A stretch of DNA of 34,769 bases, taken from the NCBI GenBank assembly GCA_003696725.1, contig RFGI01000006.1, positions 1 through 34,769 on the forward strand, written 5' to 3'. The notes beneath the pieces were generated by a model. The model was given only the letters and a program-made list of their open reading frames with translations. It was not told the origin of the DNA and did no database searches. Source of the stretch: Planctomycetota bacterium (GTDB taxonomy: Bacteria; Planctomycetota; Phycisphaerae; Phycisphaerales; UBA1924). Positions 3,066 to 24,736 of this stretch are shown here, piece by piece (the first letter of the stretch is position 1; every line of letters begins with the position of its first letter). The position numbers and the translations under genes were made by a program.

Positions 3066-4565
3066 CTACGGCCCGAGGGCCGGGGGCATCTCGAACAGCC
3101 CCTCGGGCGCCGGGGAGAGGCCCAGCCCGGCCCGCACCAGGGCCGTGAAGCGTCGCCCCCGCTCCTCATAATTCGTGAATTGATCCCAACTTGCGCAGCC
3201 GGGACTGAGCAGGACCGTCTCTCCGGGCCGGGCCCGGCTCACGGCCTGCGCCACGGCCTGGTCCAGCCCGCCGCACGCCTCGGCCCGGCCACCGGCGTGT
3301 TGGACCAGCCGGGCCAGCGCCGGCCCGGTCGCCCCGATCGTAAAGACGCCCCGGCACCGGGCCGCGGGCCCGACCATCGGCGTCAGATCGACGCCCTTGT
3401 CGAACCCGCCGGCGATGAGGTGGACCGGGATGGACGCGACGACGGGCGAGACACCCGCCCCACCCTCAACCGCGACGACGGGCGAGACGCCCGTCCCACC
3501 CTCCACCCATGCATTGGGCGGGGCGCCGGTTGCGCCGCTGTCCGTGACTTCGGCGAACGCCTGCACGGCGAGGGCTGTCGCCTCGGGCGTGGTGGATTTG
3601 GAGTCATTGACCGCGCGGATCACGCCGCCGTCGCGCTCGACCTCGGCGACGAGCTGCAACCGGTGAGGCAATCCCGTGAACGACGCCGTCGCGTCGCGCA
3701 TCGCGTCTGCATCGTCGTCCGTCCCGCGCATCGCCCGCGTCGCGGCCACGGCAAGTCCCGCATTTCTTCGGTTGTGCGCACCGGCGAGCGCCGTCTCACA
3801 CTCGGGCGCGCCGGCCCGCCCGTCGATGGCCCTATCGCCGGGCCGTTGATGCGCGAGGATCGTCCGCTTGCACCGCTCGTAGTGCGCGAACTCGCCGTGC
3901 CAGTCCAGGTGGTTCGGCGCCACGTTCGTCACCACTGCGACGTGCGGCGACCAGCCGGGCTCATCCCGACGACCCACGAACCAGTCGCCCAGCCAGTACA
4001 GCATCGCGCTGGAGAGCTCCAGCACGACCCAATCCTCCGGCTCGATCTCGTGCGCACGCGGCAAGAGCGACCCCCCTATGTTCCCGCCCAGCCACGTCCG
4101 CCCCGGCGCCAGCCGGCGCAGGATGTGGGCGATCATCGCCGCGGTGGTGCTCTTGCCGGCCGTCCCGGTCACGCCGACGACGCGTCCGCGGTCGGGCAGA
4201 CGCTCGACGAGCAAGCGGATCTCCGTGGTCATGCGTGCGCCGCGTTCGGCGGCTGCGAGGATGAAACGGTTCTCCCACGGCCGGGGCACAGCGGGGCTCA
4301 CCACGACCGTGTCGGCGCCGGCGAAGTCCGCCTCGTCGTGCCCGCCCAGCCGGAGGGTGACGCGCCCCGCGTCGACCAGATCCCGGATCGACGCCAGGGG
4401 CTCGTCGAGCGCCCCGGCGTCGGCGAGGTCCGTCACCAGCACGTCCGCGCCCTGCTCGGCGAGCCAGCGCGCGGCGCCCGCCCCCCCGCCGAAGCGGCCC
4501 AGGCCCATGACCACGACGCGCCGGCCGGCCCACTCCGCGTCCGATGGCGTGCGATCCATCCCCAT
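3066..4565 (-). CDS. murD: UDP-N-acetylmuramoyl-L-alanine--D-glutamate ligase MurD
   Basis: MurD adds D-glutamate to UDP-MurNAc-L-Ala in cytoplasmic peptidoglycan precursor synthesis. The N-terminal Rossmann domain (VVVMGLGRFGGG, about 17-28) is followed by the Mur ligase ATP loop GTAGKST (134-140; the family usually has GTNGKST). Next come NVAPNHLDWH in the central domain and the C-terminal motif HLIAGGFDKGVDL. The 499 residues exceed the usual 440-470. Part of the excess is an in-frame insertion at about 353-377, two copies of a palindromic repeat read as GTGVSPVVA and GAGVSPVVA, just before the C-terminal HLIAGG strand. The frame stays open throughout. A presence in planctomycetes is notable, because peptidoglycan was long disputed in this phylum. 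The start has GGGGCAGGGA upstream. Confidence 0.93.
   Translation of the reverse strand: MGMDRTPSDAEWAGRRVVVMGLGRFGGGAGAARWLAEQGADVLVTDLADAGALDEPLASIRDLVDAGRVTLRLGGHDEADFAGADTVVVSPAVPRPWENRFILAAAERGARMTTEIRLLVERLPDRGRVVGVTGTAGKSTTAAMIAHILRRLAPGRTWLGGNIGGSLLPRAHEIEPEDWVVLELSSAMLYWLGDWFVGRRDEPGWSPHVAVVTNVAPNHLDWHGEFAHYERCKRTILAHQRPGDRAIDGRAGAPECETALAGAHNRRNAGLAVAATRAMRGTDDDADAMRDATASFTGLPHRLQLVAEVERDGGVIRAVNDSKSTTPEATALAVQAFAEVTDSGATGAPPNAWVEGGTGVSPVVAVEGGAGVSPVVASIPVHLIAGGFDKGVDLTPMVGPAARCRGVFTIGATGPALARLVQHAGGRAEACGGLDQAVAQAVSRARPGETVLLSPGCASWDQFTNYEERGRRFTALVRAGLGLSPAPEGLFEMPPALGP
3438..3506. repeat. Two tandem 36-bp copies of the palindromic repeat inside murD
   Basis: The core palindrome GACGGGCG-AGA-CGCCCGTC (3477-3495) is perfect. 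A degenerate copy starts exactly 36 bp earlier at 3441. Both are followed by CCCAC or CCCCAC and a short linker. The orientation relative to the gene is opposite to that in purL. Confidence 0.85.
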
Positions 4566-9819: not shown

Positions 9820-10404
9820 ATGCGCCGCACCAGCGAGGACATCTACGACGAGTGGCTGGTCCTCCGCTGCCAGGCCGGCGACGGCGACGCCCTCCCGATC
9901 CTGGTCCATCGCTGGCACGGCCGGCTCTCGGCCCACGCCCGCCGATGCACCGGCGACACCGACGCCGCCCGCGACGCCGTGCAGGACGCCTGGCTCGCCA
10001 TCGTCGGCGGGCTCCCCCGCCTGAACGACCCCGCCCGGTTTGCGCCGTGGGCCTACCGCATCCTGACCAACAAGTGCCGCGACTGGGCCCGCCGGCGCAC
10101 GCGCGACCGGGACCGCGGCCTGATCGGCGCTGCGGGGTCCGGATCCGCCGACGCCTTCCCCGCCCCCGAGCCACCGGCCGGCCCGGACGCCGACGGCGCC
10201 GTCACACGCCTGCGCCGGGCCATGCGGCGCCTGAGCCCGGATCACCGCGCCGTCCTGGACCTGCACTACCTCGACGGGCTGGGCGTCGCGGCGATCGCCG
10301 ACGCCCTCGGCGTCCCCGCCGGCACCGTCAAGTCCCGGCTGCACCACGCGCGCGAGAAGTTGCGCGCGATCATCGAATCTTCACCGGAAAGGATTGAATC
10401 ATGA
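9820..10404 (+). CDS. ECF (group IV) RNA polymerase sigma factor
   Basis: The 194-residue protein has sigma region 2 at about 13-85 (DALPILVHRWHGRLSAHARR, DAVQDAWLAI, FAPWAYRILTNKCRDWARRR). An Ala/Pro linker at 100-125 follows, then region 4 at 128-185 (RLSPDHRAVLDLHYLDGLGVAAIADALGVPAGTVKSRLHHAREKLR). Regions 1 and 3 are absent, as in ECF factors. GGGAGG lies four bases before ATG. The stop overlaps the start of the next gene (ATGA), so the two are co-translated. Upstream, GTGAAC (9774-9779) and CGACAAT (9797-9803) are spaced like an ECF-type promoter, which would allow autoregulation; this is inference. The trigger and target genes are not evident. Confidence 0.92.
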   Translation: MRRTSEDIYDEWLVLRCQAGDGDALPILVHRWHGRLSAHARRCTGDTDAARDAVQDAWLAIVGGLPRLNDPARFAPWAYRILTNKCRDWARRRTRDRDRGLIGAAGSGSADAFPAPEPPAGPDADGAVTRLRRAMRRLSPDHRAVLDLHYLDGLGVAAIADALGVPAGTVKSRLHHAREKLRAIIESSPERIES

Positions 10405-10781
10405 GCCGCACCGATGACGCCATCCGCCGCGCGCTCCGCGCCGAGCGCGACGACCTGCTCGCCGACCTCGACGAGCCGAACATGCTCAGCCAGGCCCTGA
10501 CCACCATGCGCCGAGGCACGCGCTGGATCAACGCGCTGGTGATTGTCTTTACGCTCGTGTTCTTCGGGCTCCAGATCTGGACCGCGGTCCGGTTCTTCGG
10601 CGCCACGGAGGTGAAGCACATGATCGCCTGGGCCGTGGGGTTCTCGTTCTGCGCCCTGGCCGTCGCCATGCTCAAGCTCTGGTTCTGGATGCAGATGGAC
10701 AAGTATGTCATCCTGCGCGAGGTCAAGCGGCTGGAGCTGCAGGTCGCACGCCTCAGCGAGAAGCTCGCCGAGTCGCTGTGA
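10401..10781 (+). CDS. Two-helix membrane protein coupled to the ECF sigma factor (DUF6768-like)
   Basis: The 126-residue protein has a charged N-terminal cytoplasmic segment (DDAIRRALRAERDDLLADLDE). Two hydrophobic helices follow at about 47-65 (ALVIVFTLVFFGLQIWTAV) and 74-95 (IAWAVGFSFCALAVAMLKLWFW). A basic coiled-coil-like tail ends the protein (LREVKRLELQVARLSEKL). I think it matches a family catalogued as DUF6768, found beside ECF sigma genes, but cannot confirm that here. There is no zinc-binding anti-sigma motif (H-x3-C-x2-C). Direct coupling to the sigma gene makes a membrane-tethered regulator of that sigma factor the leading hypothesis. Confidence 0.8.
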   Translation: MSRTDDAIRRALRAERDDLLADLDEPNMLSQALTTMRRGTRWINALVIVFTLVFFGLQIWTAVRFFGATEVKHMIAWAVGFSFCALAVAMLKLWFWMQMDKYVILREVKRLELQVARLSEKLAESL

Positions 10782-10790
10782 GTCGGATCG

Positions 10791-10866
10791 GTGGGCCGGG
10801 CGTCTCGCCCTGTGGGACGGGCGTCTCGCCCGTCGTGGTTGACACAGACAACGGCCGAGACGGCCG
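10791..10866. repeat. Intergenic copies of the GACGGGCG palindromic repeat and a CGGCCG variant
   Basis: Two copies start with GTGGG at 10791 and 10812, 21 bp apart. The second contains the perfect palindrome GACGGGCG-TCT-CGCCCGTC (10816-10834). A related stem CGGCCG-AGA-CGGCCG lies at 10852-10866 with the same 3-nt loop design. The cluster fills most of the gap between the sigma operon and the carbonic-anhydrase-like gene; the rest of 10867-10955 shows nothing I can support. Confidence 0.85.
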
Positions 10867-10969
10867 CTCCACCGGCGGTCCCCGTCCCGGATGACGACCG
10901 AGCGATCCGTCGAACGGGACCTCGCGCCGCTCTGGTCATCCGCGGTCGGCGCCGGTACCGTCCGCCCGC

Positions 10970-21600: not shown

Positions 21601-24600
21601 TCACCAGTCCAGCGCGCCGAAGAACGCCCGCCGCATCGCTTCGAGTGCGACCTCCGCCCGCTCACCGGGCGTGATCAGCGTCAGCCCGTTCAAGCCCGCC
21701 GACGCCCGGCCGACGACGCGCGCCGACGCCCCGGCGCGGCGCAGCGCACCGGCCGTCGCGGGCCCGTCGGCGGCCTCGAGGATGTACGTCGCTGGGCGCT
21801 CGGCGAAGGGGTCGTCCAGGCTCACCTCGGCGCCGACGCCCGACGCGAGGACCATCTCGGCGACCGCGACGCCGGCGCCGCCTTCGGACGCGTCGTGCGC
21901 CGACAGGATCAGTCCGTCTCGGATCGCGGCGTGGACGGCCGCGGCGACGCGCGCCCGCCGTTGGGGCATTGAGCCCTCGCCGTCATCGTCCACGGTCGCC
22001 AGCAGGAGGGCCGATTCGCCCGCGACCGGCGCCCCCTTGAGGTCCATGGTCACGCACCGGTCGATGTCGGGCACGATCCCGACGCCGGTGATCAGCAGCG
22101 TCGGGGGGATCTCGATGGTCTCGCCGGCCTCCGTCGTGAACTGGTTGTTGAGCGAGTCCTTGCCGCTGATGAACGGCGTGCGGTAGGCGATCGCCGCGTC
22201 GTGGCACCCCTCCGCGGCCCGCACCAGCGCCGCGAGGTTCTCCGGCTTCTCGCACGAGGGCCAGCAGAAGTTGTCCAGGATCGCGATGCGCGAGGGGTCC
22301 GCGCCGACGCACACCAGGTTCCGCACGCACTCGTCCACCGCCGACAGCGCCATCAGGTACGGGTCGCCGCCCGCGGCGGGGTCGCCCCCGCTGACATCGA
22401 GCCCCTGCGAGATCGCCAGCCCGCGCGTCGAGCCCGGCGCCGGGCGGATCACCGTCGCGTCGCCCGGGCCGTCACCGCCCGGACCGACCAGGGGCTTGAC
22501 GATCGTGGCGCCCTGCACCTCGTGGTCGTACTGCCGGACGATCCACCGCTTCGACGCGATCGTCGGGTGCGCCAGAAGGGCCAGGAGCGTGCCCGCGACA
22601 GAAGCGTCCCGCCCGGTCTGGATCAACCCGGTGGGACGGGCGTCCCGCCCGTCATCGGACAACCCAGTGGGACGGGCGTCCCGCCCGTCATCGGACAACC
22701 CGGTGGGACGGGCGTCTCGCCCGTCATCGGACAACCCAGTGGGACGGGCGTCTCGCCCGTCTGGCGCATGCCCGGCGCCCGGCCAGACCGCGTCGCGCGT
22801 GCGCCGCGGCAGCCCATCGTGCAGGAAGGCCATGCCCAGCCGACCGACCTCCTCGCCGTGGAACCGGAGGATCAGTTCCCGATCGGGCGTGCCGAACGTC
22901 CCCAGCACCGCGAGCTCGACGTGCTCCTCATCGCAGATCGCGCGGAGCGCGTCGAGCCGGTCCGGCGGGACGGCCAGGACCATCCGCTCCTGCGCCTCGG
23001 AGATCCAGACTTCGCTGTACGTCAGCCCGTTGTACTTGAGCGGGGCGCGGTCCAGGTGCACCTCGGCGCCCAGCGCCTCGCCCATCTCCCCCACGGCGCT
23101 GGAGAACCCGCCGGCGCCGCAGTCCGTAATCGCCGAGTACAGCGGGCCCCCCGCCGCGTCTCGCGCTCGCAGGATCGCGTCGAGCAGTTTCTTTTCCTCG
23201 ATGGGATTCCCGATCTGGACGGCGTGGGCGAACTCGTCGGCGTGCGTGTCGGTCAGCTCGGCGCTGCTGAACGTGGCGCCGTGGATCCCGTCCCGACCGG
23301 TGCGTCCGCCCAGGGCGACGATCAGGTCGCCCGCCCGGGCCTCGCCCGCGATCCGGTCCCGCGGCAACACGCCCACGCACCCGCAGAACACCAGCGGGTT
23401 GCCCACGTACCGGTCGTCGAAGAACACCCCGCCCGAGACCGTCGGGACGCCCATCCGGTTGCCGTAGTCCCGCACGCCCGCCACGACCTGCGTGAGGATC
23501 CGTCTGGGCGCCAGGCAGCCGGCGGGCAGCGTGTCGTCGTCGAAGGAATCGGGGTGCGCGACGCAGAAGACGTCCGTGTTGGCGATGGGCTTGGCCGCGA
23601 GCCCCGTCCCGATGATGTCGCGGATGCACCCGCCGACGCCGGTGGCCGCTCCGCCGTAGGGCTCGATGGCGCTGGGGTGGTTGTGCGTCTCGACCTTCAC
23701 GCACACCGCCAGGTCGTCGTCGAAGGCGATCACGCCCGCGTTGTCCACGAACACGCTCAGGGCCCAATCCAGCCCGTCCTCGATCAGCCGGTGCGTCGCC
23801 GCCGCGACCGTCGAGCGCAAGAGGTTCTCGATCCGCACTGATCCGTCCGGCAGGGCGGTGTGCCCGGGCCGGCCGGACCAGTCGATGCCGTCGGCCGGGC
23901 CTCGGTAGACGATGTCCGCCTTGAGCGTCTTGTGCACGCAATGCTCGGACCAGGTCTGGGCCAGGGTCTCCAGTTCGGCGTCGGTGGGCTCGCGGCCGCG
24001 GTCCCGGAAGTGCTCCCGGATCGCGCGCATCTCGTCGAGCGACAGGAACAGGTGAGCCTCGCGGGAGAGGCGCGCCAGCCCCTCGTCGTCCAAGTCGCGC
24101 ACCGGCACGCGCGTCACCCGGAACGGCTTGGGCTCGGCGTGCGGGAACTCATCGGGGCAGTGCGGCCCGTCGTGGACCGCGTGGATCACCGGGTTGGCCA
24201 GCAGCCGCCGAGCCAGCCGGCGGGCGTCGGCCGGGCTCACCCCGGCGAGGTCGTACCGCCACCCCGTCGACGCCCGCACCCCGGGGACGCCCGTGAGCTC
24301 CTCGACCGCCGCCGCGACGGTCTGCGCCGGCGGGTCCATCACGCCCGGCAGGGGGTGGACCTCCAGGCACGCCGACCCCTCGTCGATCGGGCCGGCGCCG
24401 GTTGTGACGTCCTCCAGAACCGGGTTGGCCAAGAGCGACGCGCCCACCCGATCGGCGTCGGCGTCGGTCAGGGCCCCGTGGATCAGGTACACCCGGGCCA
24501 CGCGAGCCCGCTCGACCGCGACGCCCACCGCCCGCGCCTCGCGCGCCAGGCTCTCGGCCCGCGGATCGGCCAGCCCCGGGCGAACGCGCACCTCGAATCG

Positions 24601-24651
24601 GCGCATGCGGGCGGTGGCGTGGGGCGGCGCGCTGGCGGCGGCTCGGCTCAT
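21601..24651 (-). CDS. purL: Phosphoribosylformylglycinamidine synthase, PurS-PurS-PurL fusion
   Basis: PurL makes FGAM from FGAR, ATP and glutamine-derived ammonia in de novo purine synthesis. The 1016-residue chain begins with two PurS-like repeats (about 16-85, MRRFEVRVRPGLADPRAESL, and 93-165, CLEVHPLPGVMDPPAQTV). A linker and the AIR-synthase-like catalytic halves follow, with THNHPSAIEPYGGAATGVGG near 323 and ISGKDSLNNQF in the second half. There is no C-terminal glutaminase, so a separate PurQ is expected elsewhere. Residues about 627-675 are four 12-residue copies of DGRDARPTGLSD from the palindromic repeat, placed in the linker between the halves. No Shine-Dalgarno is present, but TAGACT (24663-24658, minus) lies six bases before ATG 24651, supporting this start over ATG 24606. 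Confidence 0.95.
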   Translation of the reverse strand: MSRAAASAPPHATARMRRFEVRVRPGLADPRAESLAREARAVGVAVERARVARVYLIHGALTDADADRVGASLLANPVLEDVTTGAGPIDEGSACLEVHPLPGVMDPPAQTVAAAVEELTGVPGVRASTGWRYDLAGVSPADARRLARRLLANPVIHAVHDGPHCPDEFPHAEPKPFRVTRVPVRDLDDEGLARLSREAHLFLSLDEMRAIREHFRDRGREPTDAELETLAQTWSEHCVHKTLKADIVYRGPADGIDWSGRPGHTALPDGSVRIENLLRSTVAAATHRLIEDGLDWALSVFVDNAGVIAFDDDLAVCVKVETHNHPSAIEPYGGAATGVGGCIRDIIGTGLAAKPIANTDVFCVAHPDSFDDDTLPAGCLAPRRILTQVVAGVRDYGNRMGVPTVSGGVFFDDRYVGNPLVFCGCVGVLPRDRIAGEARAGDLIVALGGRTGRDGIHGATFSSAELTDTHADEFAHAVQIGNPIEEKKLLDAILRARDAAGGPLYSAITDCGAGGFSSAVGEMGEALGAEVHLDRAPLKYNGLTYSEVWISEAQERMVLAVPPDRLDALRAICDEEHVELAVLGTFGTPDRELILRFHGEEVGRLGMAFLHDGLPRRTRDAVWPGAGHAPDGRDARPTGLSDDGRDARPTGLSDDGRDARPTGLSDDGRDARPTGLIQTGRDASVAGTLLALLAHPTIASKRWIVRQYDHEVQGATIVKPLVGPGGDGPGDATVIRPAPGSTRGLAISQGLDVSGGDPAAGGDPYLMALSAVDECVRNLVCVGADPSRIAILDNFCWPSCEKPENLAALVRAAEGCHDAAIAYRTPFISGKDSLNNQFTTEAGETIEIPPTLLITGVGIVPDIDRCVTMDLKGAPVAGESALLLATVDDDGEGSMPQRRARVAAAVHAAIRDGLILSAHDASEGGAGVAVAEMVLASGVGAEVSLDDPFAERPATYILEAADGPATAGALRRAGASARVVGRASAGLNGLTLITPGERAEVALEAMRRAFFGALDW
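22627..22770. repeat. Four tandem 36-bp palindromic repeats inside purL
   Basis: Copies begin at 22627, 22663, 22699 and 22735. Each holds GACGGGCG-TCY-CGCCCGTC, and the linker between copies is ATCGGACAACCCRGTGG. The first two have loop TCC and the last two TCT. The last copy is cut short after the palindrome. A 36-bp period equals 12 codons, so the purL frame is unbroken. Confidence 0.95.
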
Positions 24652-24682: not shown

Positions 24683-24736
24683 GTGGGACGGGCGTCCCGC
24701 CCGTCGGCGTCGGTGGGATGACGGCCGACGGCCGTC
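24683..24736. repeat. Two palindromic repeats upstream of purL
   Basis: GACGGGCG-TCC-CGCCCGTC lies at 24687-24705. A variant with perfect arms GACGGCCG-A-CGGCCGTC lies at 24720-24736. Both are preceded by GTGGGA and start 30 bp apart. They sit 20-85 bp from the purL start, so they would be in or beside its promoter. The rest of 24737-24791 shows nothing else I can support. Confidence 0.9.

Follow-up and report, generated by a model that had tools for sequence, protein, structure and literature searches.

The window, i.e. the whole stretch of 34,769 nucleotides that was analyzed, belongs to a 2.46 Mb Phycisphaerales MAG (G000). It harbors copies of a short repeat (REP) which lie within murD, within purL and between genes. 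The REP unit consists of a GTGG tag, an 8-bp stem and a 3-nt loop (GTGG-GACGGGCG-TCT-CGCCCGTC), and 8 copies were counted in the window versus 0.01 expected by chance. The relevant features are:

3066..4565, minus strand: murD, encoding UDP-N-acetylmuramoyl-L-alanine--D-glutamate ligase (NCBIfam TIGR01087, 286.7 bits, cut-off 211.95)
3441..3463, minus strand: murD REP copy 2, two mismatches, translated GGAGVSPV
3477..3499, minus strand: murD REP copy 1, exact, translated GGTGVSPV
10791..10872, plus strand: intergenic composite of two overlapping REPs (21-bp period) and the inverted hairpin B, directly after the ORF at 10401-10781
21601..24651, minus strand: purL, host gene (Pfam AIRS, AIRS_C and FGAR-AT_linker)
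22631..22761, plus strand: REP array in purL, four tandem copies with a 36-bp period, translated four times as DGRDARPT
24683..24705, plus strand: REP copy 31 bp upstream of the purL start

Translation of the murD strand across the two REP copies gives WVEGGTGVSPVVAVEGGAGVSPVV. The copies are arranged in tandem, 36 bp from start to start, and both are in frame. The first-pass annotation had claimed that the same repeat is present in murD in the orientation opposite to purL, and this was confirmed when both copies were located and the strands compared: relative to the coding strand, the murD REPs (GTGVSPV) run opposite to the purL REPs (DGRDARPT). A spacing of 36 bp as in purL but with different linkers had also been described correctly, the linker being GTCGCGGTTGAGG in murD versus ATCGGACAACCCR in purL. 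The same holds for the addition of ~24 residues before HLIAGG. The insert was absent from 19 of 19 aligned relatives. In total MurD exceeds its relatives by ~33-38 residues, of which the repeat accounts for ~24, and the insert site is the loop before HLIAGG, which varies in length among relatives anyway. PurL of most relatives examined aligns uninterrupted across the linker that holds the REP array in the window. In a genome of another genus (G007, locus L323), an independent REP peptide, RGTGLQPV, was observed in this same PurL linker.

Number, spacing and placement of REPs in the genome

The genome contains 122 REP copies, versus 0 for a reversed-pattern control. Placement and spacing were analyzed in 60 stretches and the window, with 22 of the 122 copies lying outside this set. 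Tandem spacings ranged from 21 to 42 bp, with 21 bp being the most frequent and 30, 33, 36, 38, 39, 40 and 42 bp also occurring; 36 bp is therefore not a genome-wide period of tandem copies, as had been considered. Spacing by multiples of three, also proposed by the first-pass annotation, held within recognized genes (30, 33, 36 and 42 bp) and failed outside of them, to which spacings of 38 and 40 bp are confined. Random spacing, which the annotation had named as evidence against its reading, is thus half correct: spacing is variable overall, but is held to multiples of three inside genes. One codon phase comprises 21 of 25 good genic copies and, when counted by site, ~12 of 16 genic sites (binomial p ~8e-4). 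The GTGVSPV and DGRDARPT readings have common triplet boundaries.

It had further been suggested that an element open in all frames is specially adapted to genes. Six-frame openness is ordinary, since in simulations all six frames were open in 71% of random hairpins with the GC content of the genome and in 89% of stem-shuffled hairpins. Moreover, the REP mostly avoids genes: coding regions make up ~88% of the sequence, yet ~15 of 63 classifiable sites were genic and ~48 (~76%) intergenic, counts which are approximate for genic sites because murD, classed by homology, had been passed over by a simple codon-model gene finder in favor of a competing frame. Intergenic REPs usually belong to a composite whose other hairpin (ACGGCCGAGACGGCCGT, hairpin B) lies ~38 bp off in inverted orientation, and in many composites the upstream gene ends in a TAG stop codon that lies 17-18 bp ahead of the hairpin. 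Examples of such intergenic composites with a predicted TAG stop are L036, L043, L049, L057, L064, L065, L070 and L091. Genic copies are naked hairpins that lack the composite flanks. As REPs lie mostly outside genes in spite of the high coding density, the in-frame genic copies are best read as tolerated survivors of selection. The true adaptation to life in genes is a cassette of a REP-associated tyrosine transposase (RAYT), which lay beyond the view of the first-pass annotation.

RAYTs nested in host enzymes

Two Y1 transposase matches were found in G000. One is a RAYT on contig C143 that is flanked on its two sides by copies of the REP present in murD and purL, three of them direct and three inverted. 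RAYT and REPs form a single open frame, with no stop codon and with valyl-tRNA synthetase (ValRS) on either side. In this fragmented MAG valS is split over two contigs, its 3' part being located on C138, and the two contigs share an overlap of 33 residues without a difference; a second valS was not found in G000. The nested domain matched NCBIfam REP_Tyr_transpos with 95.1 bits (cut-off 80). Its predicted structure (pLDDT 92.6) had its best PDB match in 4er8 (TM 0.76), the structure of a RAYT in complex with a REP hairpin. The full-length ValRS-RAYT model was poor beyond the RAYT domain and is uninformative there, because it was based on only 9 sequences. The HUH histidines and the catalytic tyrosine of the RAYTs are conserved with few changes or none, H58 and Tyr123 being invariant across 36 sequences. 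With the RAYT profile NF047646, L031, L128, L148, L173, L256 and L163 scored above the cut-off, and L166, hosted by MiaA, scored 76.1, below the cut-off of 80. The REPs that flank the RAYT in valS are identical to the genome's family, and this RAYT is the probable mobilizer of the murD/purL-type REP. A second RAYT (L034, contig C191, 125-700) was observed in frame after the end of an upstream ORF. It has its own type of REP (GTGGGGCAGGC...), of which only 4 copies are present in G000.

When 301 genomes of Phycisphaerales, most of them MAGs, were searched for RAYT homologues, long frames (at least 399 amino acids) held 52 of 58 strong RAYT matches versus 5 of 92 weaker, distant Y1 matches; ~6 of the 58 close RAYTs were outside long frames. 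An artefact of high GC content as the origin of the long frames was ruled out by this difference between close and distant transposases, both taken from one set of genomes, and also by the host domains flanking the nested RAYT on both sides. Inspection of 50 RAYT loci placed 48 within host proteins, namely ValRS (26), RdgB (12), LeuRS (8), KBL (1) and MiaA (1), with a few of the 48 loci ending at contig boundaries. Hosts in other groups and phyla were IleRS, PurH, DnaK, AlaRS (Verrucomicrobiota), an MgsA-type AAA ATPase, an SNF2 helicase and several DNA methyltransferases. Beyond Phycisphaerales, close RAYT homologues are mostly stand-alone. At L220, L221, L229 and L258, from genomes labelled Chloroflexi, Deltaproteobacteria, Bacteroidota and Desulfobacca, a RAYT was seen in an open frame with DUF1156-type methyltransferase sequence. 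Nested RAYTs of the LeuRS type (e.g. L176 and L173) form a distinct subfamily whose N-terminal segment (RDPYPxG) is longer, and the hairpin of L176 is tagged GTAC.

Matched inverted tagged hairpins were present on both sides of the RAYT in 35 of the 48 nested loci. In 30 of these 35, the length from GTGG to CCAC leaves a remainder of 1 when divided by 3, and the codon phase at its start is shared; together with one flanking base per side, the cassette is thus in frame. No stop codon between host and RAYT was found in any of the 48 loci. In 16 of them there was no ATG, GTG or TTG in the 30 codons upstream, and these RAYTs would hardly be translatable except with their host. An own start and stop, true of the described members of the family but not defining it, is thus not a property of the nested copies. 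A filled and an empty ValRS site were available from the same genus. The filled site of G093 reads GGGGAT-G/GTGGCACAGG...CCTGTGCCAC/C-GGGGAG and the empty site of G057 reads GGCGATCGTGGCGGCGAACCGGGG, with the insert in G093 bounded by GTGG...CCAC. Rfam matches were absent from seven nested loci, showing that no group I or II intron is present in these seven. Likewise, no intein Hint or splicing domain was found among the Pfam matches of the nested proteins at E 1e-5.

On a ValRS tree comprising 21 genes with the RAYT and 29 with an empty site, at least 12 changes between presence and absence are required. The RAYT tree requires at least 8 host switches for 7 host labels, and the ValRS-nested L162 and L169 group within the LeuRS-type RAYT clade, which implies that the ValRS loop was occupied more than once. 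A single ancient insertion into valS followed by strict vertical descent is supported by neither tree. RAYT and ValRS distances are weakly correlated (r 0.19, p 0.06), which does not allow vertical inheritance to be told clearly apart from mobile inheritance. Purifying selection acts on the nested RAYT, with a dN/dS of 0.133 (L133/L136) and 0.147 (L137/L145), not above that of the host, and of 0.13-0.21 in the less saturated pairs, synonymous saturation limiting the other pairs. Related genomes hold 7-15 copies of REPs resembling those beside their own RAYT. The G017/G204-type REP was found in 15 copies in G204, 10 in G016 and 9 in G017 versus 0 in four genomes without a ValRS-nested RAYT, a comparison biased by the choice of the pattern from RAYT-bearing genomes. 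The valS loop of G034 (L181), which has no RAYT, contains a solo REP-like peptide, GGRNACPT, possibly a remnant.

Origin of the murD insert and relation to known systems

Taken together, the murD insert is very likely a tandem of naked GTGG-tagged REPs, the non-autonomous part of a REP/RAYT system whose RAYT is nested in valS in G000. Belonging to the Y1/HUH single-strand transposases, the cognate RAYT would recognize the REP hairpin, cut single-stranded DNA in the manner of IS200/IS605 and insert copies of REP DNA elsewhere, thereby spreading REPs and at times the entire cassette. Insertions in essential genes would persist only if the frame is kept and the site is a tolerant surface loop or linker. 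Having no stop and no conserved start, the REP>-RAYT-<REP unit in valS of G000 is expected to be synthesized as one domain of ValRS, and the essential reading frame would provide the transposase with expression and with a shield against deletion. At the level of sequence, the matched REPs, the catalytic residues, the dN/dS of ~0.13-0.2, the filled/empty pair and the patchiness indicate that the in-frame RAYT cassettes are active and mobile.

On a wider scale, we consider it rather probable that these RAYTs form a lineage without own start and stop that lives as an in-frame passenger-domain cassette in essential or housekeeping enzymes and moves among a small number of tolerant loops, in a niche resembling that of inteins but minus splicing. 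The enzymes in question would probably comprise ValRS, LeuRS, IleRS, AlaRS, RdgB, PurH, DnaK and others. Within this reading the host would not survive an imprecise deletion, which would keep the passenger from being lost.

For murD and purL on their own, it would be adequate to assume that ordinary intergenic REPs land in genes now and then, with the RAYT in valS as a lone accident and nothing beyond Di Nocera et al. (2013). The ~76% of intergenic sites are in line with this, as are the intragenic GTAG/GTGG REPs on record, Verrucomicrobia included (PMC3733652). However, 48 nested RAYTs in several host families remain unexplained by it, as do the absent start and stop codons and the presence of at least two distinct RAYT clades in one ValRS loop (L162 and L169 belonging to the LeuRS-type one). 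It is contradicted as regards the RAYT and appears quite unlikely. A domesticated RAYT, kept as a functional part of ValRS, RdgB or LeuRS for the benefit of the host, would agree with purifying selection on the domain, with its invariant catalytic residues and with its presence over several families of Phycisphaerales. Such a part would hardly be expected to show a patchy distribution, having been gained in or lost from ValRS at least 12 times, an empty site within the same genus, unrelated host enzymes and flanking REPs that are intact and matched, and we regard domestication as unlikely.

Tolerance in essential enzymes would also be accounted for if the cassette were removed during maturation, by RNA or protein splicing or by ribosome hopping, leaving the host enzyme unmodified. 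This is very unlikely, given that the seven loci lack an Rfam match, that no intein (Hint) domain was among the Pfam matches and that the reading frame continues across the cassette, a property needed for neither splicing nor hopping. The fragmentation of G000, with valS on two contigs joined by the 33-residue overlap, could point to assembly chimeras or pseudogenes. As the architecture recurs in many genera, including the one- or few-contig assemblies G093, G099 and G051, and combines absence of stops with low dN/dS, this possibility is largely refuted and extremely improbable. The favored explanation remains that of REPs mobilized by a RAYT which is itself an in-frame passenger of host enzymes. 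Its directly observed basis comprises the sequence and number of the copies, their frames, the RAYT fold with its catalytic residues, the matched REPs on either side, the filled and empty sites and the turnover, whereas transposition activity, translation as a single protein and function of the fusion are inferred.

REPs and RAYTs are widespread, and nested RAYTs occur in dozens of related genomes. They may represent a testable natural answer to the question how RAYTs persist without being ordinary transposons, the proposed strategy being an in-frame hiding place in a gene that the host cannot lose. Natural filled/empty pairs could define the exact mobile unit and its target, and nesting suggests that translation is linked to transposase dose. 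Essential tRNA synthetases appear to tolerate an entire nuclease domain in a loop. In annotation, proteins with a nested RAYT are likely misnamed or taken for chimeras.

REPs, their intragenic in-frame copies (in O. terrae and elsewhere), GTGG variants and REPtrons have already been described (PMC3733652), and GTAG-20 of Opitutus terrae is GTGG-tagged (Di Nocera et al. 2013, PMC3733652). The REP of G000 has the characteristics of GTAG/GTGG REPs: a tag and hairpin, many dispersed copies, mostly extragenic location and inverted pairs or clusters. Like GTAG-tagged REPs (PMC3733652) it combines a tag and a short hairpin with high copy number and tandem or inverted arrays, its flank often supplies a stop codon and some copies are intragenic and in frame; in contrast to them, the sequence of the present family is specific to its lineage. 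Rickettsia palindromic elements (RPE) of ~150 bp, the classic example, are likewise palindromes inserted in frame in many unrelated host genes, with no mobilizing enzyme reported (PMC10969869). The present repeat falls outside the definition of RPE, being 23 bp long, GTGG-tagged, found in Phycisphaerales and linked to a RAYT. IS200/IS605 elements (IS608, ISDra2) and IStrons share the Y1/HUH fold, but here REP-type tags are present and no group I intron or TnpB was seen. Inteins and homing endonuclease cassettes place a mobile nuclease in frame within conserved essential proteins; unlike in inteins, a splicing domain was not found in the nested RAYTs, and their sites are tolerant loops, not active sites.

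In REPtrons, a RAYT lies between matching inverted REPs (Nunvar 2010, PMC2817692; PMC3733652). The nested RAYTs share with REPtrons and RAYTs (4er8) the transposase with HUH and Tyr, the matching inverted REPs and the NCBIfam family REP_Tyr_transpos. Known RAYTs are separate genes, described as single-copy and vertically inherited (PMC8049555), whereas here the RAYT lacks a stop of its own and often a start as well, and is inserted in frame into a housekeeping enzyme. RAYT genes inside host proteins are not described in the accessible part of Di Nocera 2013 (PMC3733652), and among open-licence papers no literature was found on RAYT together with tRNA synthetases or on RAYT as an in-frame part of a host enzyme. 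A stop-less RAYT as in-frame domain of essential enzymes thus appears to be undescribed. The murD REPs alone are of a known sort, and the novelty lies in the nested RAYT.
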